The notes: generated by a model not told the origin, from the letters alone. Counted from the stretch's first letter, positions 3,552 through 16,338 are shown. The stretch is 39,840 bases of DNA from Acidobacteriota bacterium (GCA_022821265.1 JAJEDW010000302.1:1-39840); one strand, 5' to 3'. Numbers and translations are program-made.

Positions 3552-5957
3552 CTAAGGCGCGGTCTGCGGGTGCAGGTAGGTCAGCCGGCCGCGGTCCACG
3601 CGCCCCAGGAAACCGATGGCCATCATGCGCGTAGACTCCGTGGACACGCGCACGTAGCCGCCGTCCTGGCCCATGTAGGACTCGTCCACGGCCTCGGGGT
3701 CGGGCGTCGGGTCGGGATCCTCGTCGGGCGCCAGCAGCGTGCGCAGCGCGGCGATGACGACGGCGTCGGCGGCAATCTCCTCTTCGGACGACGCCAACAT
3801 CTCGCCGTCCGCGCTCCACGCCTCCACGGTCACCGTCATCTCCTCGCTCCCGCCGTTCAGGATGGCCAGGCCCGTGTACTCGGTGTCGCTGGAGCGCACG
3901 GGCGTGAAGAACAGCTCATCCCCGCGGCCGACGCTCAGCGGCGACGAGGCCCGGCTGTCGCCGACGGCTTCGACGCGGACCGCCGCGGCCACCCGGGGCG
4001 GCGTCGCGAACGGGCTGGCCGTGGTCCCCCGCACCTCCACGTCGAACCACCCCCACTGGAACGTGTCCGGACCCAGGATCTCGCCCCAGCTCAACTCGTC
4101 CATCGTGTTCGAGGGCACGTTGGTGACGCGGGACCCCAGCTCCATGCCGTCCGCGCCGTAGGCCGTCAACCGGGCGAACGCGTTCTGGTCGGAACCGTTG
4201 ACGAGCGTGACGATGGTGTCGTAGCCGGCGCCCTTCGAGAAATAGGGATACACCCGCCGGCGGACGCTGGAGCGCAGCAGCGCCGGCGTGGAATGGGCCA
4301 GCGCGCCCGGGTTGTCGACGATGGCGCCGCGGAAGTCGGCGTCGTCGGACTCGACGCGCACGTGCCCGGCGAGCGGCAGCGTGGAGACGTCCACGCCGAA
4401 GACGTCGTGGAGCGCGCCCCGCACGGCCGCGCCCGGTTCGGCGTCCTCGGTGGTGACGCGGGCCTGCTCCATGCCCGCGTCGTCGTAAAGCGTCCACTCC
4501 CAGTCAGTCGCCTCGGGGCTTTCGCCCACGACACTCAGAACGGGCACCTGGGTGGAGTCCGCCCGGTTGAAGGGGAAGAATGCCGGGCTGATCGGAGTCT
4601 GCGAATGAACGGTGTAGTCCCCGTCCGCGACGGCGCCCGTGGAAGCGCCGACGATCCGGTCGCTGGCGGCGACGACCTCCACCCACGCCACGTTGTCCCG
4701 CGTCGCCGCCGTGCCGAACGTGTCCGCCAGCGTGAACGTCAGCGTCCGTTGCCCGCCGAGCGTGCGCGAGACTTCGCCGTCGACGCCGGCCGCCTCTACG
4801 GTCTCGCCGTCCGCACCGATGGCCGTCAGCGTCAGCGGCGCCGCCCCGGTGCCGACGTTGGACACCGTGAAGGTCTGCGATTCGGCCTCGGGGTCCACGG
4901 TGAACCGCAACGTCTTGGACCGCGGCCCGCCCGGCCCGGAGGCGGGAAGCCACAGCGCGTCGTAGCGGGGGCGGGCCGTGGAGGGCAGGTCCATCGTCGG
5001 CTCCAGGGCGCCGATAGGCCCGAGCGACACCTGGAAGTACCCGGTCCCCACGCCCGGCTGGTCGGTGTTCAGCGTCGGCCGGAAACTGAACCCGTCGAGA
5101 ACACGGCTGGAGGCGCCGCCTTCGGCCCCCACGAACTCATAGATGACGGGATCCTCCTGCAGACCGGCATCCACGTCACGTGCCTCGCAGGTCGAAATAT
5201 CGACGTTTTGCCAGTCGCAGTCGTTCAGCACGAGCGTGCTGCCCACGCCCGAGTCGATCGACGCCGGGAACACCAGCTGCGTGTTGGCCGGCAGCGACGG
5301 CACGCGGAAGACGATCTGCGTCGGCCCGCTCACGCCCGACGCCGTCTCGTCGACCCACGCGCTGGCGAACCCCTCGTTAAAGGTGAAGTTGCCCAGTTGA
5401 TCCGAGGCCACGCCTCGCGACGTGAAAGCGAAGGACGAATCCGATTCCGCGTCGAGGATCAGCCCCTGCATCACGCCGCCCAGGACCTGGACCTGGCGGT
5501 CGAGCTGCCCCAGCCGGTGCACGGACGACGAAATCCCGGCCGTCAGCGTCGTGATTCCGCTGGCGGGAACCGAAAACCGCACCCCCTCCACCGTCACGGA
5601 CTGCCCCTGGGTCAAGCCGGCCGGCAGGTTCACCGTGATGATGCCCCGTTCCTCGTCCTGCGACGCGCTGTATCCCGTCGTGGGCGCCCCCGTGCTGGGA
5701 GTGACGACGATGGCGTTCTCCGGCGTGGTCAGGACGATGTCCGAGCCCAAGTCGACCTCGAAGGCGCCGGCCGTGGATGTCCCCGAGGACACGGTGAACG
5801 TGATCGCGCCGAGGGGCTCGGCATGCCCGGTGCTGACCACCATGTTCGTCGAACTCGACAGCGAGAACGTCGCCTGCGCGTGGGCCGCGCCCCCGGCCAG
5901 AACGATTGCCGCCAGAAGCCGTCCCGCCCGGAGGCCCAAACGATGGAAATCTGTCAT
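3552..5957 (-). CDS. Secreted/surface protein with repeated beta-rich domains
   Basis: Start MTDFHRLGLRAGRLLAAIVLAGGAAHAQATF (signal peptide); beta-sandwich-like sequence, 'YFSKGAGYDTIVTLVNGS' module. Confidence 0.75.
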   Translation of the reverse strand: MTDFHRLGLRAGRLLAAIVLAGGAAHAQATFSLSSSTNMVVSTGHAEPLGAITFTVSSGTSTAGAFEVDLGSDIVLTTPENAIVVTPSTGAPTTGYSASQDEERGIITVNLPAGLTQGQSVTVEGVRFSVPASGITTLTAGISSSVHRLGQLDRQVQVLGGVMQGLILDAESDSSFAFTSRGVASDQLGNFTFNEGFASAWVDETASGVSGPTQIVFRVPSLPANTQLVFPASIDSGVGSTLVLNDCDWQNVDISTCEARDVDAGLQEDPVIYEFVGAEGGASSRVLDGFSFRPTLNTDQPGVGTGYFQVSLGPIGALEPTMDLPSTARPRYDALWLPASGPGGPRSKTLRFTVDPEAESQTFTVSNVGTGAAPLTLTAIGADGETVEAAGVDGEVSRTLGGQRTLTFTLADTFGTAATRDNVAWVEVVAASDRIVGASTGAVADGDYTVHSQTPISPAFFPFNRADSTQVPVLSVVGESPEATDWEWTLYDDAGMEQARVTTEDAEPGAAVRGALHDVFGVDVSTLPLAGHVRVESDDADFRGAIVDNPGALAHSTPALLRSSVRRRVYPYFSKGAGYDTIVTLVNGSDQNAFARLTAYGADGMELGSRVTNVPSNTMDELSWGEILGPDTFQWGWFDVEVRGTTASPFATPPRVAAAVRVEAVGDSRASSPLSVGRGDELFFTPVRSSDTEYTGLAILNGGSEEMTVTVEAWSADGEMLASSEEEIAADAVVIAALRTLLAPDEDPDPTPDPEAVDESYMGQDGGYVRVSTESTRMMAIGFLGRVDRGRLTYLHPQTAP

Positions 5958-6230: not shown

Positions 6231-7874
6231 TCACTCGTCGGTGATGTCGTCGATCGCGCCTGCGGCGCCCCACGCGCCCCCGGCGAACGAACTCAAGAAC
6301 ACGAACCCCTTCGCGTCGGTGAAGTCGGTCGTGATCTCGACATAACCCGAGTAAGCGGCGTCGTGACCGGCCGCTTCCAGCACGTCACTGAGCTGCACGG
6401 CATACGTGCCGCCCGCTTCAAGCATGCCGTCGTCGTTCAGACCGCTACCGGGAGAACCGCCCATGGTCGTGTAGGGATCCATCTCCGCGTCGCCCGCGAA
6501 GAAGTTGAACGTGATCGCGCCCATCTGGTCAGACGCCGTGTTCGTGTTGGCGATGGCGATGCCGGTGTCCCAACTGTCGCCGATGACCGCCGCGAAAGGA
6601 ATCCGCAGCATGGTCTGGTCCGAAGTCACGTCGATGACCTTCACGGCGTGGCTCGGATCTGAGGCGAACCGGCGAGCCAGCCTGGTTCCCCGGAAAGTGC
6701 GCGCATAGGTCGCCGGACCGATCGGACCCACGTCCACGGTCGCGGCGATGTTCACGTCCCCCAGCGGCAGGCTGACGGCGCCCGGCCCACGCGTCGTGAC
6801 CCTGATGCTGCCCCGGATCACGACAACGTCGACCTTATTCGGGTCGAGACTGCCGGTCGTGATGTCGGTGAGCACGATGGCGTCGCCGTTTTCGTCCAGG
6901 CCATCTATTTGGACGCCCTCTGTGGCGTCGTCCGAGTCGAACCCATTGAGAGCCGTGCCGAAACCCATCTTGACCACGGCCTCGGTGCTTTGCGAGGTCA
7001 AGGTCTGCTCCAGCACGTCATCTTCCATCGCGCCGCCCACGAGGGCCAATTGGCCGTTTGTAGCCACGCAGTCGCGAGTCTCGTCGACCATTGTCGTCGC
7101 GTCGTCGGTGGCCGCTCCACAGTCGTTCAAGATCAAACTCGTCGGCTCGAGGTCGTCGAGATCTTCCTTGGCCGCTACCCAAGCGTCGATCGTGACGCTC
7201 ATGCCGCTGCCGATCCCGGAGAAGTCCAGGTTCAGTTCGGCCATGTCACCGAACGAGTCGACGGCGTTCTCCTCGATCAACAGCTTGAAGTACGCTTCGT
7301 CGGAGGGAGCCGCGGTGTGGCGGATCAGCGTGATCTTCTCACCGGCCGTCACGCCGCTGTCGACCAACTCGTCGACGATGCTGTTGATGACCGTCACCTC
7401 GTTGGCGCCGGCCGCCAACTGCACACCGCCCGACGAAGTGATGTTGGCCTGAACGTCGCTCAGGCCCTGCCCGGCGATCGCCACCCGGACGCCCGACACG
7501 TCGATACGATTGCCCACGGCGGTGCAAGTGTCGGCGTCCGTGACTTGGATGGTGATGGTACTGCCGGACACCGTCACCTGGCCCGTGCGGAGAGCGGTGG
7601 CGGCTGTGCCGCAGACACTGACGGTCTCACTGCCGGAGTTCGTGATCGTGGTGCCGTAGTCGATCATCACGCTGCCGTTGTTTGCGGCTGCCGCGATGGT
7701 TCCCGACGCCAACGTCAAGCCGATGCTCCCGGCCAACTCCGTCTGGCCGTTCATCCGGGCGCGCGGCTCGATGCTGCTCGCGACCGTGAAAGTGGCCTGC
7801 GCGAAGGCGCTGGTTGCGATCGTCATCGCTGCCAGGAGGCTCAATGCGCTAAGCACGTATTTGGTTTTCAACAT
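6231..7874 (-). CDS. Secreted/surface protein, distant paralog of 3552-5957
   Basis: Start MLKTKYVLSALSLLAAMTIATSAFAQATFTVASS with upstream GAAGGAG; signal peptide. Confidence 0.8.
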   Translation of the reverse strand: MLKTKYVLSALSLLAAMTIATSAFAQATFTVASSIEPRARMNGQTELAGSIGLTLASGTIAAAANNGSVMIDYGTTITNSGSETVSVCGTAATALRTGQVTVSGSTITIQVTDADTCTAVGNRIDVSGVRVAIAGQGLSDVQANITSSGGVQLAAGANEVTVINSIVDELVDSGVTAGEKITLIRHTAAPSDEAYFKLLIEENAVDSFGDMAELNLDFSGIGSGMSVTIDAWVAAKEDLDDLEPTSLILNDCGAATDDATTMVDETRDCVATNGQLALVGGAMEDDVLEQTLTSQSTEAVVKMGFGTALNGFDSDDATEGVQIDGLDENGDAIVLTDITTGSLDPNKVDVVVIRGSIRVTTRGPGAVSLPLGDVNIAATVDVGPIGPATYARTFRGTRLARRFASDPSHAVKVIDVTSDQTMLRIPFAAVIGDSWDTGIAIANTNTASDQMGAITFNFFAGDAEMDPYTTMGGSPGSGLNDDGMLEAGGTYAVQLSDVLEAAGHDAAYSGYVEITTDFTDAKGFVFLSSFAGGAWGAAGAIDDITDE

Positions 7875-8143
7875 TCGAATGTTCGCTCCTTCTAGAAGAG
7901 AGGTTGAGGCCCGCCTGGCGGCGAACCCGAGAAACGCGGCCGTGCCAGTTACGCAAGCCGCCCGATACAATACCAGATCCGCCCGAGAATTACACCTTCT
8001 GTCAAGCAAATCGTTCATCGGGTACCTGGCCCGCGGCCACACGCGGCCGCACGTCCTTCCTTATGCACTCGGGTTGCCAAACCAGCGGCTCCTGGCAGGT
8101 TGCTGATTCTAAAGGGGGCGGAGTTCGCTGGACGTCCCGCGGG

Positions 8144-8509: not shown

Positions 8510-8700
8510 GGCATGGTTCCGACGGGCGGGGCTGTCCCGGCTCCGTGCATCCGGGCCGCGGGTTCATGCGCCCGGAACGCTCGTCCTACGTCCGGTCCGA
8601 CGGGCCGAAACGGTCGTCGAACTTCGCGTCCAGCCGCCGGATGCCGTCTGCCGATCTCTTGCATAAACGTCTTCATGGCGTCGCCGGCGTCGACGACGAC
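8510..8700 (-). pseudogene. Degenerate sixth copy of the TM/coiled-coil paralog family
   Basis: Reverse strand AAGACGTTTATGCAAGAGATCGGCAGACGGCATCCGGCGGCTGGACGCGAAGTTCGACGACC matches paralog KAFMQEIRDDIRRLDAKFDDR with a 1-nt frame change; lies in the same array spacing. Confidence 0.55.
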
Positions 8701-8735
8701 GGCGGACGGGAACGAGGTTGCCCGGCGCTCGGGCT

Positions 8736-9002
8736 CTACCCGGCCGCACGGCCGGCGAGAGTGTCCCGCAGGCCTTCGATCGATCCCGCCAGCCGGGCCT
8801 GTCCCTGCTCCACCCGGCCGAGCCGGTCGTCGAACTTGGCTTCCAGCCGCCGGATGTCGTCCCGGATCTCCTGCATGAACGCCTTCAGAAGCCGGCGGTC
8901 CGAATTCACCCGCCCGACCCACATGCCGACGCTGAGAACTCCACCGAGGGCCGCGATCCGGAACGCCGGACCCGTCGGCAACGCATTCGACCACTCCGCC
9001 AT
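8736..9002 (-). CDS. TM-anchored coiled-coil protein, array member 1 (88 aa)
   Basis: MAEWSNALPTGPAFRIAALGGVLSVGMWVGRVNSDRRLLKAFMQEIRDDIRRLEAKFDDRLGRVEQGQARLAGSIEGLRDTLAGRAAG. Confidence 0.75.
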   Translation of the reverse strand: MAEWSNALPTGPAFRIAALGGVLSVGMWVGRVNSDRRLLKAFMQEIRDDIRRLEAKFDDRLGRVEQGQARLAGSIEGLRDTLAGRAAG

Positions 9003-9129
9003 GGCGCACGATCTCCACGCCGCACGGAAAGGGGAGCGCGCGGCGCCGGTCCGGAAGGGCCGACGGCGAGTCTACGGCGTCGCCTTCGGCGGCGTCAACG
9101 GCGGACGGGAACGGGGCTGTCCGGCGGCT

Positions 9130-9480
9130 CTACCCGGCCGCACGGCCGGCCAGGGTGGCCTGCAGGCCGTCGAACCGCCGCTCCAGGCCGTCGAACCGGC
9201 CCTCCAGTCCTTCGAACCGCCGCTCCAGGCCGTCGAACCGGCCCTCCAGTCCTTCGAGCCGGCCCTCCAGACGGGCCTGTCCCTGCTCCAACCGCCCGAG
9301 CCGGTCGTCGAACTTGGCGTCCAGCCGCCGGATGTCGTCCCGGATCTCCTGCATGAACGCCTTCAGAAGCCGGCGGTCCGAATTCACCCGCCCGACCCAC
9401 ATGCCGACGCTGAGAACTCCACCGAGGGCCGCGATCCAGAACGCCGGACCCGTCAGCAACGTATTCAACCACTCCGCCAT
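9130..9480 (-). CDS. TM-anchored coiled-coil protein, array member 2 (116 aa), heptad repeats
   Basis: Same termini; GLEGRFDGLERRFEGLEGRFDGLERRFD. Confidence 0.8.
   Translation of the reverse strand: MAEWLNTLLTGPAFWIAALGGVLSVGMWVGRVNSDRRLLKAFMQEIRDDIRRLDAKFDDRLGRLEQGQARLEGRLEGLEGRFDGLERRFEGLEGRFDGLERRFDGLQATLAGRAAG
9175..9258. repeat. Two 42-bp tandem repeats inside array member 2
   Basis: ccgccgctccaggccgtcgaaccggccctccagtccttcga[a/g] repeated at 9175 and 9217. Confidence 0.85.
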
Positions 9481-9661
9481 GGCGCACGATCTCCACGCCG
9501 CGCGGAAAGGGCGTTGCGCGGCGCCGGTCCGGAAGGGCTGAGGATGAGTCTACGGCGTTGCGGACGGCGGCGTCAACGCCGAAGCGGGGCGGAATCGGGC
9601 GGCTCGCCCGAACGGATGGTTGTCGGGATGGCGGGCGCCCGGGCCCCGCCCGCGCGCCGTT

Positions 9662-10081
9662 CTACCCGGCCGCACGGCCGGCGAGGGTGTCCTGCAGGCC
9701 GACGAACCGCCGCTCCAGACCTTCGAACCGGCCCTCCAGGCGGGCCTGTCCTTGCTCCAACCGCCCGAGCCGGCCGTCGAACTTCGCGTCCAACCGCCCG
9801 AGCCGGCCGTCGAATTTCGCTTCCAACCGCTCGAACCGGTCGTCGAATTTCGCTTCCAACCGCTCGAACCGGTCGTCGAACTTCGCGTCCAACCGCTCGA
9901 ACCGGCCGTCGAACTTCGCGTCCAGCCGCCGGATGTCGTCCCGGATCTCCTGCATGAACGCCTTCAGAAGCCGGCGGTCCGAATTCACCCGCCCGACCCA
10001 CATGCCGACGCTCAGAACCCCGCCGAGGGACGCGATCCAGAACGCGGGACCCGTCAGCAACGCATTCAACCACTCTGCCAT
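9662..10081 (-). CDS. TM-anchored coiled-coil protein, array member 3 (139 aa), hendecad repeats
   Basis: RLDAKFDGRFERLDAKFDDRFERLEAKFDDRFERLEAKFDGRLGRLDAKFDGR. Confidence 0.8.
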   Translation of the reverse strand: MAEWLNALLTGPAFWIASLGGVLSVGMWVGRVNSDRRLLKAFMQEIRDDIRRLDAKFDGRFERLDAKFDDRFERLEAKFDDRFERLEAKFDGRLGRLDAKFDGRLGRLEQGQARLEGRFEGLERRFVGLQDTLAGRAAG

Positions 10082-10208
10082 GGCGCACGATCTCCACGCC
10101 GCGCGGAAAGGGGGTTGCGCGGCGTCGATGCGGAAGGGCTGAGGGCGAGTCTACGGCGTTGCGCGCGGCGGCGTCAACGGCGGACGGGAACGGGGCTGCC
10201 CGGCGGCT

Positions 10209-10691
10209 CTACCCGGCCGCCCGGCCGGCGAGGGTTTCCCGCAGGCCTTCCATCATCCCCGCCAGCCGATCCTGCCCCTGCTCCACCCGTCCGAGCCGCT
10301 CGTCCATCTGGGCGAAACGGGCGTCGAACTTCGATTCCAACTGCCGGATCTCGCCCCGAATCTCCCGCATGCACTCCCTGAGAACCGCGCGGTCCTCTTC
10401 GGCGCGCTTCTCCGACGCTTCACGGTCCTGGTCGGCACGCTTCAGGAACGCCTCACGATCCTGGTCGGCGCGTTGCCGGAACTCCTCACGATCCCGGTCG
10501 GCGCGTTGCCGGAACTCCTCACGGTCCTGGTCGGCGCGTTCCTGGAACGCCTTGCGGTCGTCGTCGGCTCGCTGATTCAGGAGGGCCCGATCGGTGTTGA
10601 CGTTCGAAATCCAGTGGATGGTTCCGTAGAGGAACCCCAGCGCACCGATCCCCGCGATGACGATCACGGGCGTCGAAAACCACTCGGCCAT
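10209..10691 (-). CDS. TM-anchored coiled-coil protein, array member 4 (160 aa)
   Basis: MAEWFSTPVIVIAGIGALGFLYGTIHWISNVNTDRALLNQRADDDRKAFQERADQDREEFRQRADRDREEFRQ...TLAGRAAG. Confidence 0.8.
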   Translation of the reverse strand: MAEWFSTPVIVIAGIGALGFLYGTIHWISNVNTDRALLNQRADDDRKAFQERADQDREEFRQRADRDREEFRQRADQDREAFLKRADQDREASEKRAEEDRAVLRECMREIRGEIRQLESKFDARFAQMDERLGRVEQGQDRLAGMMEGLRETLAGRAAG

Positions 10692-10823
10692 GACGCACGA
10701 TCTCCACGCCGCGCGGAAAGGGGGGCGCGCGGCGCCGGTACGGAAGGGCTGAGGACGAGTCTACGGCGTTGCGCGCGGCGGCGTCAACGGCGGATGGGGG
10801 CGGGGTCGCCCGGCGCTCCAGAT

Positions 10824-11558
10824 CTACCCGGCCGCGCGTCCGGCGAGGGCTTCCCGCAGGCCCTCGAGCCGACCCTCCAGACGCGCCTGGCCCTGCTCGA
10901 CCCCCCCGAGCCGGTCGTCCATGTGCCCGAAACGTTCGTCCCACTTCCGGTCCAGCCGCCCGAACCGGTCGTCGAACTTCGCTTCCAGCCGTCCGCACCG
11001 GCGGTCGAAATTAGCGGCCAACTGCCCTAGCCGGTCGTCGAACTTCGCGTCCAACTGCCCCAACCGATCATCGAACTTCGCGTCCAACTGCCCCAGTCGG
11101 TCGTCGAACTTCGCTTCCAGCCGCCCGAACCGGTCGTCGAACTTCGCGTCCAACTGCCCTAGCCGGTCGTCGAACTTCGCGTCCAATCGCTTGAAGTCGG
11201 CCCGGACCTCTTGCATGAACTCCCCGAGGACGGCCCGATCCTCCTGGGTGCGCTGCTCCCATGCGGCCCGATCCTCCTGGGCCCGCTGCTCCCATGCGGC
11301 CCGATCCTCCTGGGCCCGCTGCTCCCATGCGGCGCGATCCTCCTGGGCCCGCTGCTCCCATGCGGCGCGATCGTCCGTGGCCCGCCGTTCCGATGCGGCG
11401 CGATCGTCCTGGGCGCGCGCCTCCATCTCCGTCGTGCGCCGGTCGAAGGCGGCGCGATCGGCATCCACTTTCGCAACCCATCGGTCGGTCTTGACGATGA
11501 TCTTGATGACGCCCAGCGCCGCAATGAGAATCAGGGGGGTGTTCAGCCAATCCGCCAT
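10824..11558 (-). CDS. TM-anchored coiled-coil protein, array member 5 (244 aa), two hendecad repeat blocks
   Basis: RAQEDRAAWEQ x4-5 then LDAKFDDRLGQ x5-6; ends EALAGRAAG. Confidence 0.85.
   Translation of the reverse strand: MADWLNTPLILIAALGVIKIIVKTDRWVAKVDADRAAFDRRTTEMEARAQDDRAASERRATDDRAAWEQRAQEDRAAWEQRAQEDRAAWEQRAQEDRAAWEQRTQEDRAVLGEFMQEVRADFKRLDAKFDDRLGQLDAKFDDRFGRLEAKFDDRLGQLDAKFDDRLGQLDAKFDDRLGQLAANFDRRCGRLEAKFDDRFGRLDRKWDERFGHMDDRLGGVEQGQARLEGRLEGLREALAGRAAG
10960..11190. repeat. 33-bp tandem repeats (encode LDAKFDDRLGQ)
   Basis: cggtcgtcgaacttcgcgtccaactgccc-type units repeated about 6-7 times with substitutions. Confidence 0.85.
11236..11430. repeat. 33-bp tandem repeats (encode RAQEDRAAWEQ)
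   Basis: gcccgatcctcctgggcccgctgctcccatgcg-type units repeated about 5-6 times. Confidence 0.85.
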
Positions 11559-11744
11559 GACGCACGATCTCCGCGCCGCGCGGAAAGGGAGTCGCGCAGC
11601 GCCGTTCCGGAAGGGCTGAGAGTGAGTCTACCGGGTTGCCGGCGGCGGCGTCAACGGCGGATGGGAACGGCGCATCCGGGCGTCCGGTCCGTCCGACGGC
11701 GGGCGAAGGCGTCCCGGGGCCGTTCGAGCCGGCGCCGCGGGTGG

Positions 11745-12251
11745 ATGGAAACGGCTCGCCGTGATAGGCTCGCCGCCCGAGGGGGCGAATTCGTGGTCGA
11801 GCGTTTTTCCGACGATGAGACGGCCTATTCCGAGTGGCTCGCCGAGCATCCCGACGGGTTCGTTTTCAACCACTTCGGCGGCCCGCCCGCGTTCAACGTC
11901 ATCCATCGGGCCCGCTGCGGGCACCTTCACCGAACCGACAACGAGGGCCGGAGGACCGCCGTCGAGAAGCTGGCCGCGACCGGTCTGCGGGAGATGGTTT
12001 CCCGCGTGAAGCAGATTCGCGGGTCCGGACAGTGGAAGTTCTGCGCCGATTGCGCTCCGGCCGCGCCGGAACGGGCGGGCGCCGGGCGGCCGCGTGACGC
12101 CGCGGACGCGTCCTGGGTCACGCCGCCGGCGCTTCGCGTCGAGCTGGACGGTCTCGAGAACCGGGTGACCCGGCGGCTGCGATGGACGCTGGTGGGTCAC
12201 GCCGTGGCGATCCTGACCGGCGTGGCGCTGATCCTGTTGTTGGCGGGGTGA
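11745..12251 (+). CDS. Protein with conserved Cys/His N-terminal domain and C-terminal TM segment
   Basis: FSDDETAYSEWLAEHPDGFVFNHFGGPPAFNVIHRARCGHL...WKFCADC ... LRWTLVGHAVAILTGVALILLLAG; start could also be GTG 11793. Confidence 0.65.
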   Translation: METARRDRLAARGGEFVVERFSDDETAYSEWLAEHPDGFVFNHFGGPPAFNVIHRARCGHLHRTDNEGRRTAVEKLAATGLREMVSRVKQIRGSGQWKFCADCAPAAPERAGAGRPRDAADASWVTPPALRVELDGLENRVTRRLRWTLVGHAVAILTGVALILLLAG

Positions 12252-12910
12252 TGCCGGGCGCGAGGAGACACCCCGTGAGACTGGACCCGCACATCGGCCG
12301 GCGCTTCGGCTACCCCAACGACATCGGTCTTCCGGAGCGCGTCCTGCTGATCGGCGACTCGCACCACGGGGAGACGCCCGCCTACCCGGACCTGACCCGC
12401 CAGGTCGTCCGGGACGTCACGGTCCACGGCTACCGGTACCGGTTCTTCACGCGGATGTTCCACGCCGTGCGCGGCCCGGGCGCCGCCTCGACGCTCGAAG
12501 CGCTCCGGGATTTCTACGAATCCCTCGCGTTCGCCAATTTCATCCAGGAGGTCCGGACCGGCCGCGGCGAATTCCCGACCGAACAGCAGTGGAAACGGGG
12601 CGAAAAGGCCTTCGTCGAGAATATCGACCAGGTGCGGCCGACGCATTCGATCGTGTTCGGCGTCCGGGTGTGGGACCGATTGCCGCGCGACCGATTCGAC
12701 GCCTGCGCCGCGGAGATCGAAGCCGCCGGCCGGCGCCACATGCCGGATCCGATCCGAAACCAACCGCGGTATCGGGATGGGAAATGGATCGGGCGCTTCC
12801 GGTACGCCGGCGGATCATGCCCGATCGTGAGCGTCCGCCACCCGGCGTCCTACGGTTTCAGCGCGGCCGACTGGCATCCCGTCCTCTCGTGGTTCCTGGG
12901 TCTGGCCTGA
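12251..12910 (+). CDS. Uracil-DNA glycosylase-like fold protein (tentative)
   Basis: VLLIGDSHHG near N-terminus, FANFIQEV, and C-terminal HPASYGFSAADWHPVLSWFL resemble UDG-superfamily motif layout; TGATG coupling with upstream gene. Confidence 0.5.
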   Translation: MPGARRHPVRLDPHIGRRFGYPNDIGLPERVLLIGDSHHGETPAYPDLTRQVVRDVTVHGYRYRFFTRMFHAVRGPGAASTLEALRDFYESLAFANFIQEVRTGRGEFPTEQQWKRGEKAFVENIDQVRPTHSIVFGVRVWDRLPRDRFDACAAEIEAAGRRHMPDPIRNQPRYRDGKWIGRFRYAGGSCPIVSVRHPASYGFSAADWHPVLSWFLGLA

Positions 12911-12976
12911 GACGGCCGGCCCTTCGACGCCCGGCGGCGCGCTCGGGGCCGTCAACGCGGGGGCGCCGCGTTGGAG

Positions 12977-13405
12977 TTATCGGGCCGGTCTCCGGAAGCT
13001 GAACTCCGGCTCGGGGCGGCGTTTGATGACCATGATGGACGACAGGGCGTCCGTCGACGGGCCGGCCCGGTACGGCGGCGTGGGGAAGGCCGTGCGGATG
13101 ACGTACTCCAGCCGGAGCCACAACCTGCCCTCGCGGCGGTGGATGTTGGCGATCCAGAACCGGTCGTTCCCGCCGGCGTGATATCCCCGAGCCCGGACGC
13201 GTTCATCGATCGCCCGCACGTCCACATGGTCGCCGAAGATGACGGCGGGGTGGAGATAGGGCGCTTTCTCGAACGGCACGACGTAAGCGTCCTGGAACAC
13301 CCACCCCAGCGGGCCGGCTTCCGGGGCCGGCGGCCGGGCTTGGATCGGGCCCTGGCCGGCGGCGGGCATGGCCAGCACCAGCAACAGACCCTGCAAGGCG
13401 ATCAT
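12977..13405 (-). CDS. Secreted hypothetical protein, paralog A
   Basis: MIALQGLLLVLAMPAAGQGPIQARPPAPEAGPLGWVFQDAYVVPFEKAPYLHPAVIFGDHVDVRAIDERVRARGY. Confidence 0.7.
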   Translation of the reverse strand: MIALQGLLLVLAMPAAGQGPIQARPPAPEAGPLGWVFQDAYVVPFEKAPYLHPAVIFGDHVDVRAIDERVRARGYHAGGNDRFWIANIHRREGRLWLRLEYVIRTAFPTPPYRAGPSTDALSSIMVIKRRPEPEFSFRRPAR

Positions 13406-13455
13406 GCGGCCAATTGTGCCACGGGACGGCGAACCGGGGAAACGATTCCGGGCCG

Positions 13456-14064
13456 TCAACGCGGGGGCGCCGTCGCGTCGTCTTCCGCCGCGGGCTCGGC
13501 GCCGCCGGGCGCGGGTTCGGCCAACGGCCCGACCCGCTCGATCCGGTCGTCGCCGGCGATCTCGCGGAGGCGGTCCCAGTCCAGGCCGGCCTCGTCGTAG
13601 GGCGGCGGCGGCGCCACGCGAAGGGCGCGCTGGAGCTGTTCGGCCAGCCGCGCGTCGCTCGGTTCGGACTCGGCGTCGTGAGTGACGACGATGGAGAACG
13701 ACGGGGCGTCCGCCAGCGGGGCGCCCGCGTAGGGCGGCGTCGGGAAGTGCGTGCGGACGGCGTACTCCAGCCGGACCCACACCTCGCCGTCGCGGCGGTC
13801 GACGGCGGCGATCCGGAACCGGTCGTCCCCGTCGGCGTAGTAACCCCGCGCCCGGTTGCGTTCATCGACCGGCCGCACGTCCACGTCGTCGCCGAGGACG
13901 ACGGCGGGATGGAGATAGGGCGTTTCCTCCAGCGGCGCCAGGTAGGCTCCCTGGAACACCAGCCGCGGCGCGCCGGCTTCCGCATCCGGCGGCGGGGCCT
14001 GGGTGAGGCCCTGGCCGGCGGCGGCCATGGCCGGAACCAGCAACAGACCGGGCACGGAGGTCAT
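13456..14064 (-). CDS. Secreted hypothetical protein, paralog B
   Basis: MTSVPGLLLVPAMAAAGQGLTQAPPPDAEAGAPRLVFQGAYLAPLEETPYLHPAVVLGDDVDVRPVDERNRARGY; clear paralog of 12977-13405. Confidence 0.7.
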   Translation of the reverse strand: MTSVPGLLLVPAMAAAGQGLTQAPPPDAEAGAPRLVFQGAYLAPLEETPYLHPAVVLGDDVDVRPVDERNRARGYYADGDDRFRIAAVDRRDGEVWVRLEYAVRTHFPTPPYAGAPLADAPSFSIVVTHDAESEPSDARLAEQLQRALRVAPPPPYDEAGLDWDRLREIAGDDRIERVGPLAEPAPGGAEPAAEDDATAPPR

Positions 14065-15817: not shown

Positions 15818-16096
15818 TCACTCTCCCACAAGGCGTATCTCGACCTTCATGCCGACGGCCCGGGCGTAGCGCTCCAGGGTCCTGAGAGACGGTTTGTGCC
15901 CGCTCTCCAGCCGGGCGACGGTCGGCTGGCTGGCCCCCATCCGCTCGGCCAACGCCTGCTGACTCAATCCCGCCTTCACGCGAGCCTGGATGAGTTCCCG
16001 CGCCAAGCGGAACTCCGGACCGATGGCCTCGAACTCGCGTCGATAGTCCGGATCGCGTCTCCACTTCTTCCGGAGCTCCGTGAATGGGACGGTCAT
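15818..16096 (-). CDS. higA: XRE/HigA-like antitoxin with HTH
   Basis: ARELIQARVKAGLSQQALAERMGASQPTVARLESGHKPSLRTLERYARAVGMKVEIRL; overlaps toxin-like ORF (ATGA). Confidence 0.8.
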   Translation of the reverse strand: MTVPFTELRKKWRRDPDYRREFEAIGPEFRLARELIQARVKAGLSQQALAERMGASQPTVARLESGHKPSLRTLERYARAVGMKVEIRLVGE

Positions 16097-16338
16097 GACT
16101 CCAACTCCTTCATTCTGGAAAGGGCCGTTCGAATCGCCCTCTCGGGGGTCTTTCGGGTCTTCTTGCGGAAGGCATGAAGAATCACTACCCGCCGCGCGCC
16201 CGCCACCACGTAGATGGCGCGGCCGACCCCGTCCCGTCCGCTCATCCGCATCTCCCACAGCTTGCGCATGTCCAGAGTTCCGCGACGACCCACCGGTTCA
16301 GGATCTCGACACGCCGATTCGCGACCAACTCCGTTCAT
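16093..16338 (-). pseudogene. higB: HigB/RelE-like (Gp49 family) toxin, N-terminal half apparently disrupted
   Basis: LWEMRMSGRDGVGRAIYVVAGARRVVILHAFRKKTRKTPERAIRTALSRMKELES is a typical HigB C-terminal half; expected N-terminus (VEILNRWVVAEL) is found in a different frame. Confidence 0.55.

Follow-up and report, generated by a model that had tools for sequence, protein, structure and literature searches.

The DNA analysed here (the window) is a stretch of 39,840 nucleotides (nt) from an Acidobacteriota bacterium (GCA_022821265.1, JAJEDW010000302.1:1-39840), in which we identified a tandem array of genes encoding putative membrane-anchored coiled-coil proteins of different lengths. With its promoters and a remnant included, the array extends over ~8560-11654 and consists of five intact open reading frames (ORFs), m1 to m5, placed in a row on the minus strand (Table 1). 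All five products start with MA[E/D]W, have one hydrophobic segment and end with TLAGRAAG or ALAGRAAG, and the ORFs confirm in this respect the five consecutive genes with common ends that a first-pass annotation of the sequence had described. The same annotation counted "five to six" paralogs; five are intact, and the sixth is only a decayed remnant with an in-frame stop codon.

Table 1. Features of the array (aa, amino acids; bp, base pairs).
Feature	Position	Strand	Description
m5	10824..11558	-	244 aa; first in transcription order; zones 1 and 2 amplified (7 and 8 eleven-residue units)
m4	10209..10691	-	160 aa; zone 1 amplified (6 eleven-residue units)
m3	9662..10081	-	139 aa; zone 2 amplified (5 eleven-residue units)
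m2	9130..9480	-	116 aa; zone 3 amplified (5 seven-residue units)
m1	8736..9002	-	88 aa; minimal form, zero amplified zones
Decayed sixth copy	about 8562-8712	-	leader-like start, FMQEI.., zone 2-like stretch, in-frame TAG
33-bp repeats, zone 1 of m5	11231..11418	-	Tandem Repeats Finder
33-bp repeats, zone 2 of m5	10916..11186	-	Tandem Repeats Finder
33-bp repeats, zone 1 of m4	10390..10568	-	Tandem Repeats Finder
33-bp repeats, zone 2 of m3	9756..9930	-	Tandem Repeats Finder
21-bp repeats, zone 3 of m2	9159..9270	-	Tandem Repeats Finder
m5 promoter-like element (TTGACG-N18-TAGACT)	11624..11654	-
m4 promoter-like element	10757..10787	-
m3 promoter-like element	10147..10177	-
m2 promoter-like element	9546..9576	-
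m1 promoter-like element	9068..9098	-
m5 leader	11559..11623	-	hairpin about 11573-11602; GGAGA ribosome-binding site
m4 leader	10692..10756	-	hairpin about 10706-10735
m3 leader	10082..10146	-	hairpin about 10096-10125
m2 leader	9481..9545	-	hairpin about 9495-9524
m1 leader	9003..9067	-	hairpin about 9017-9046

Listing of the repeat units revealed one scaffold with three zones that can be amplified: a juxtamembrane zone of 11-residue units (zone 1, RADQDREEFRQ), a middle zone of 11-residue units (zone 2, RLDAKFDDRFE) and a C-terminal zone of 7-residue units (zone 3, LEGRFDG). The paralogs differ in which zone is amplified, the numbers of units in zones 1/2/3 being 1/1/0 in m1, 1/1/5 in m2, 1/5/2 in m3, 6/0/0 in m4 and 7/8/1 in m5, as counted with regular expressions that miss single diverged units. 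The variable tandem-repeat middles noted in the first pass are borne out at the DNA level, where Tandem Repeats Finder detected units of 21 and 33 bp. Both are multiples of three and therefore length varies in frame, so that on/off phase variation, which had also been proposed, is not expected. In the four amplified members residue self-identity was 0.35-0.57 at the repeat period versus 0.05-0.09 at other spacings, and their hydrophobic periodicity was matched by none of 1000 shuffles. The hydrophobic period was 3.56 in m2, the heptad member, and 3.63-3.65 in the others (overall range 3.54-3.65). Coiled coils have periods of 3.5 when built of heptads and 3.67 when built of hendecads, and the values of the array fall between the two.

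Each gene is preceded by a promoter-like element, TTGACG-N18-TAGACT, found as TTGACGCCGCC-N12-GTAGACTC; it ends some 65 nt upstream of the start codon. This pattern occurs five times in the window, against 0.01 expected, and five times genome-wide, always inside the array; the elements are putative promoters. The 65-nt leader that follows carries a 9-bp hairpin beside GGAGA. Leaders of m1-m5 are 83-93% identical, in agreement with the conserved intergenic DNA noted before, whereas identity in the opening 108 nt of the ORFs is down to 56-62% between the m1-3, m4 and m5 types. The leader is therefore kept alike, by conservation or homogenisation, irrespective of the coding start. Since promoter and leader are near-identical from gene to gene, the set is probably co-regulated.

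In nine leaders from this species and the sister species described below, the hairpin pairing is kept in 98.8% of cells (slid controls <=65%), with one double compensatory change and several G-U changes, and the covariation score was equalled by 34 of 500 column shuffles. Pairing and covariation thus lend modest support to the predicted hairpin, in a test limited by the great similarity of the sequences. A covariance model of the leader matched the array leaders alone, in two genomes (next best E = 0.29), and Rfam gave zero matches across the array region, leaders included. An invariant CUUUCC loop could also pair with GGAGA in an alternative hairpin, which 98.6% of cells in the window's array leaders allow and which in several leaders is close in energy to the main hairpin, with zero covariation support; a two-state leader is conceivable.

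The side of a membrane segment that is richer in lysine and arginine (K/R) is cytoplasmic (positive-inside rule). In 93 of 95 members of the array and its relatives these residues are commoner after than before the hydrophobic segment, and in none is the reverse true, which predicts an N-out/C-in topology with the helix in the cytoplasm. The array proteins are accordingly predicted to be cytoplasmic rods tethered to the inner membrane. A surface-exposed module of variable length, as suggested in the first pass, would fit the resemblance of a membrane anchor with a length-variable rod to some surface stalks; it is very improbable, given the lack of a signal peptide-like charge pattern (the N-tail is acidic and the positive charges follow the anchor in the same 93 members) and the in-frame units, which exclude on/off switching.

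AlphaFold2, run on m1 with ten array sequences, gave one continuous helix over residues 12-87 with a mean predicted local distance difference test (pLDDT) of 70.8. The topology, the helix and the coiled coil of m1-m5, like the activity of the promoters, are inferred from sequence. An alpha-helix rises 0.15 nm per residue, and the residues after position 32 number 56, 84, 107, 128 and 212 in m1 to m5, so one straight helix after residue 32 would give rods of about 8, 13, 16, 19 and 32 nm, respectively. The 11-residue units might instead form amphipathic helices lying flat on the membrane and coating or shaping it, as in apolipoproteins or perilipins. In line with this are the periodicity of the 11-residue units (3.62-3.65) and sub-threshold matches to the Apolipoprotein A1/A4/E domain (PF01442), the best being that of m5 (E = 4.6e-9; 36.7 bits, below the gathering score of 90 bits). 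We find this unlikely, as the hydrophobic face is narrow (L, F, F per 11 residues in zone 2) and suits coiled-coil cores, and the 7-residue zones have a period near 3.55.

The only genome of the same genus among 100 relatives (contig JAJEEE010000056.1, Acidobacteria bacterium isolate p16x34bins.10) holds a syntenic array of five genes in the order X1, m5', m4', m123', X2. The window has no X gene, and its m1-m3 have one counterpart in the sister genome, m123'. The alignment of m5 with m5' has two gaps of exactly 33 residues each; m4 and m4' differ by 7 residues, m2 and m123' by 7+7, and X1 and X2, both of the sister species, by 22, 14 and 7. Aligned nucleotide identity across the compared ortholog and X pairs was 94-98%, and orthologs this similar are already one to six whole repeat units apart. 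All array ORFs of both species (10/10) are intact, the length changes preserving register. The ratio of nonsynonymous to synonymous polymorphism (pN/pS), pooled over three ortholog pairs from the two species, was 0.32 (p = 4e-5), which indicates that the array proteins are under purifying selection.

As the same array occurs in two independent assemblies of different species, an assembly artefact is unlikely; exact repeat counts may nevertheless be collapsed in metagenome assemblies. The first-pass annotation had proposed comparing array and repeat counts in related genomes, with a single fixed gene or an assembly artefact as the contrary outcomes. Neither outcome was obtained, gene content and repeat numbers differing between the two species. 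The first-pass idea that recombination or slippage drives a family of membrane-tethered rods differing in length gains support from the orthologs, which differ by multiples of whole repeats.

We consider it about an even chance that m1-m5 are single-pass inner-membrane proteins with cytoplasmic coiled-coil rods of graded length and a common C-terminal cap, diversified by duplication and by repeat gain and loss. Each gene, having a promoter and leader almost the same as those of the others, would stand as a self-contained unit. New members would come from tandem duplication of a complete promoter-leader-gene unit, which would explain both the array and the shared leader, while slippage or unequal recombination between the 21- and 33-bp units would set the lengths. 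The gain or loss in frame of 7- and 11-residue units in one of the three zones would keep the coiled-coil register. A common binding cap could in this way be held at graded distances from the inner membrane, and we are tempted to suggest, as a conjecture, that the proteins act as membrane-tethered scaffolds or tethers. Derivation of m1 by recombination of the m2/m3 and m4 types was considered and rejected; the identities at its ends are suggestive, but the amplified ends of m2 and m3 confound them.

The array has relatives elsewhere. A profile of short relatives was positive in 14 of 299 genomes of the class, namely 2 of the own genus, 7 of genus g10 (family f7) and 5 of genus g68 (family f12). 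A phylum sample of about 297 genomes, the own genome apart, added two genomes with 16 and 19 matches and one weak match (3 positives). Two bins, one of them from the Gammaproteobacteria, hold a few members as well; of 229 genomes sampled from that class, 2 were positive. Where present, the family reaches 6-19 copies in some genomes. Its members are mostly 55-150 aa long, with an N-terminal anchor that has an acidic tail and a C-terminal motif (R)ERMARLEGLLEGLREA. Tandem clusters of two to five genes hold 56 of the 106 members examined, whose loci were chosen by matches and not at random, three of them (L077-L079) carrying the N-terminal block alone. Related arrays thus occur also in other lineages of the class and phylum, one of them (L119) with four open frames of 112-151 residues and interior repeats of its own.

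A profile built from the relatives (A3, of which m1 is itself a row) matches all five array proteins, with E-values of 1.8e-25 for m1, 2.6e-19 to 4.5e-14 for m2, m4 and m5 and 1.2e-7 for m3, and the match includes the family's C-terminal A-x-L-x-G motif and the amphipathic end that follows it. Array and short family, which is unnamed and occurs as single copies and in tandem, have in common an anchor-plus-coiled-coil design with N-terminal anchor, acidic N-tail and C-terminal motif type; the array is set apart by a W-G-VN-DR-FM-EIR block next to the membrane, by longer amplified interiors and by a leader of its own. The array is an expanded branch of a wider, patchily distributed and uncharacterised family. 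The array's juxtamembrane block, W-G-VN-DR-F-EFM-EIR-DI, is present also in proteins of other bins that have a different C-terminal half, which suggests modular assembly. These proteins (L077:668-1180, L078:5572-5970 and L079:5929-6390, from other sponge-like metagenome bins) continue after the anchor block with RL..RGSPIRLTDLG-type sequence and a further domain; Pfam gave no match for them.

The leader of genus g10 is exclusive too: in three genomes its conserved element has 21 copies, every one at a family gene. A rule shared by both leaders, in which a pyrimidine-rich element would sequester the ribosome-binding site, was dropped after the complementarity of the g10 leaders was compared with shuffles (5.5 vs 6.4 in group BC; 7.8 vs 6.8 in group A).

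Leaders that travel with the gene, the very patchy distribution with many copies where present, the decayed copy and the lack of a constant neighbour would all be expected if a leader-plus-gene cassette were spreading, both in place and to scattered sites, at little gain from any one copy (birth-and-death or near-selfish expansion), in which case rod length would serve no function. This strongest rival is nonetheless rather doubtful in view of the pooled pN/pS, of the ten intact ORFs with register-preserving length changes, and of the absence of a mobility gene and of phage or plasmid relatives of the short family: the short family had no match in phages (tblastn) or plasmids and none was confirmed in viral contigs.

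No family of known function was recognized for the array proteins. Searches of Pfam, NCBIfam, PHROGs and PADLOC returned only sub-threshold or coiled-coil matches, none above the cut-off where one exists: the best PHROGs match (1.5e-5) joins the repeat region of m3 to a family of unknown function, and PADLOC gave coiled-coil matches (E 0.01-0.05) for m3 only and none for the relatives. A search of Protein Data Bank (PDB) sequences yielded generic coiled coils only. The statement of the first pass that no characterised system has this layout stands as far as Pfam, NCBIfam, PHROGs, PADLOC and Rfam go; still, the array does not stand alone, since the wider family makes tandem arrays elsewhere. 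CCDC90-like (DUF1640) proteins are membrane-anchored bacterial coiled coils whose anchor is C-terminal; that family (PF07798) had no match in m1-m5 at E <= 1 and weak ones in 3 of 22 relatives, the best with E 0.025.

The Bdr proteins also show repeat-number variation and membrane anchoring, their anchor being C-terminal. They form an inner-membrane paralog family described as unique to Borrelia, with KID/KIE tripeptide repeats (PMC4370689). The array resembles them as a membrane paralog family with repeats and differs in its N-terminal anchor and in the absence of KID repeats, its units being those of the three zones given above. Hendecad-dominated families have been treated by Martinez-Goikoetxea and Lupas (2023, J Struct Biol 215:108007, as cited in PMC11676326); the array may be akin to these in its hendecad zones, and differs in that heptad and hendecad zones alternate between its paralogs. 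The short-family profile weakly matched 7o97, a solved construct of hendecad type (E = 0.03).

The short relatives also have the topology and size class of PspB (phage shock protein B), with a short N-terminal anchor, a C-terminal coiled coil and, by eye, a similar RERI-LE stretch. They could accordingly be small inner-membrane stress sensors or adaptors whose cytoplasmic coiled coil binds a regulator through the conserved C-terminal motif. Profile alignment with hhalign was weak (probability 24-42% over 25-35 columns), involved coiled-coil columns alone and fell short of significance as evidence of homology; there was no Pfam PspB match at E <= 1, and homology is not supported. PspB is, moreover, not known to carry amplified repeats, and no psp genes were recognised in the listed neighbour clusters, which were not searched with psp profiles; this role is improbable. 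PspB-like sensing, membrane-lying helices and surface exposure are all less likely.

Several points weigh against the graded-rod explanation. The anchor has diverged among m1-m5 (54-62% identity in the first 108 nt), so that an identical anchor is an approximation. The confidence of AlphaFold2 is moderate, the pLDDT given above being accompanied by a predicted template modelling (pTM) score of 0.35 for m1 as a single chain. The units of zone 1 are poor in hydrophobic residues and may form a single helix instead of a coiled coil. Coding constraint is weaker in the array than in two of three flanking genes. Family libraries and the PDB sequence search yielded no homolog of known function, and no partner protein was found, with no neighbour gene recurring beyond synteny. 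A conserved partner gene was rejected as a candidate, for neighbours recur mainly by synteny and three syntenic locus groups in genus g10 adjoin unrelated genes.

The family is undescribed in the libraries searched. Going further, we tentatively put forward as a possibility that, in several Acidobacteriota lineages, self-contained leader-plus-gene cassettes of this bacterial family build tandem sets of membrane-tethered rods in the cytoplasm, and that heptads and hendecads gained or lost zone by zone tune their length; the set would then amount to evolvable molecular rulers. Coiled-coil rods set distances in cells, and it is rare, to our knowledge, for a natural set of paralogs to vary chiefly in how long the rod is and which zone is lengthened. 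The ten related rods of the two species, with the same kind of anchor and cap, make up a natural experiment on the in-register gain of heptads and hendecads. As the family is missing from the four protein-family libraries searched and reaches such copy numbers, the annotation of these uncultured Acidobacteriota would benefit.

Some features of the neighbourhood were also observed. Immediately upstream of the sister array lies a DarT/DarG toxin-antitoxin pair (L056:8655-10369; NCBIfam equivalog matches), and the counterpart site in the window holds unrelated genes (12275-13405); the region upstream of the array is a gene-replacement site. X1 (L056:10732-11589) appears to replace the 3' end of a gene that is intact in the window (11745-12251, plus strand), as if an array rearrangement had damaged a neighbour gene. 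The array in the window is followed by genes for two related large secreted-looking proteins (3552-5939 and 6231-7874); Pfam was negative for 6231-8042, and NCBIfam for both proteins. Their homologs adjoin array-type genes twice in the sister genome, once in opposite orientation: at L056:14342-16102, and at L059, where a further array-type gene stands at the contig end. A small pair resembling HigB/HigA-type toxin-antitoxin systems, with an Xre-type helix-turn-helix partner, is found at 15818-16269 and kept in the sister species (L056:5608-6209). Finally, two adjacent and similar small secreted-looking proteins with a common PYLHPAV stretch are encoded at 12977-14064; the sister species has one, which points to a neighbourhood generally prone to tandem duplication.

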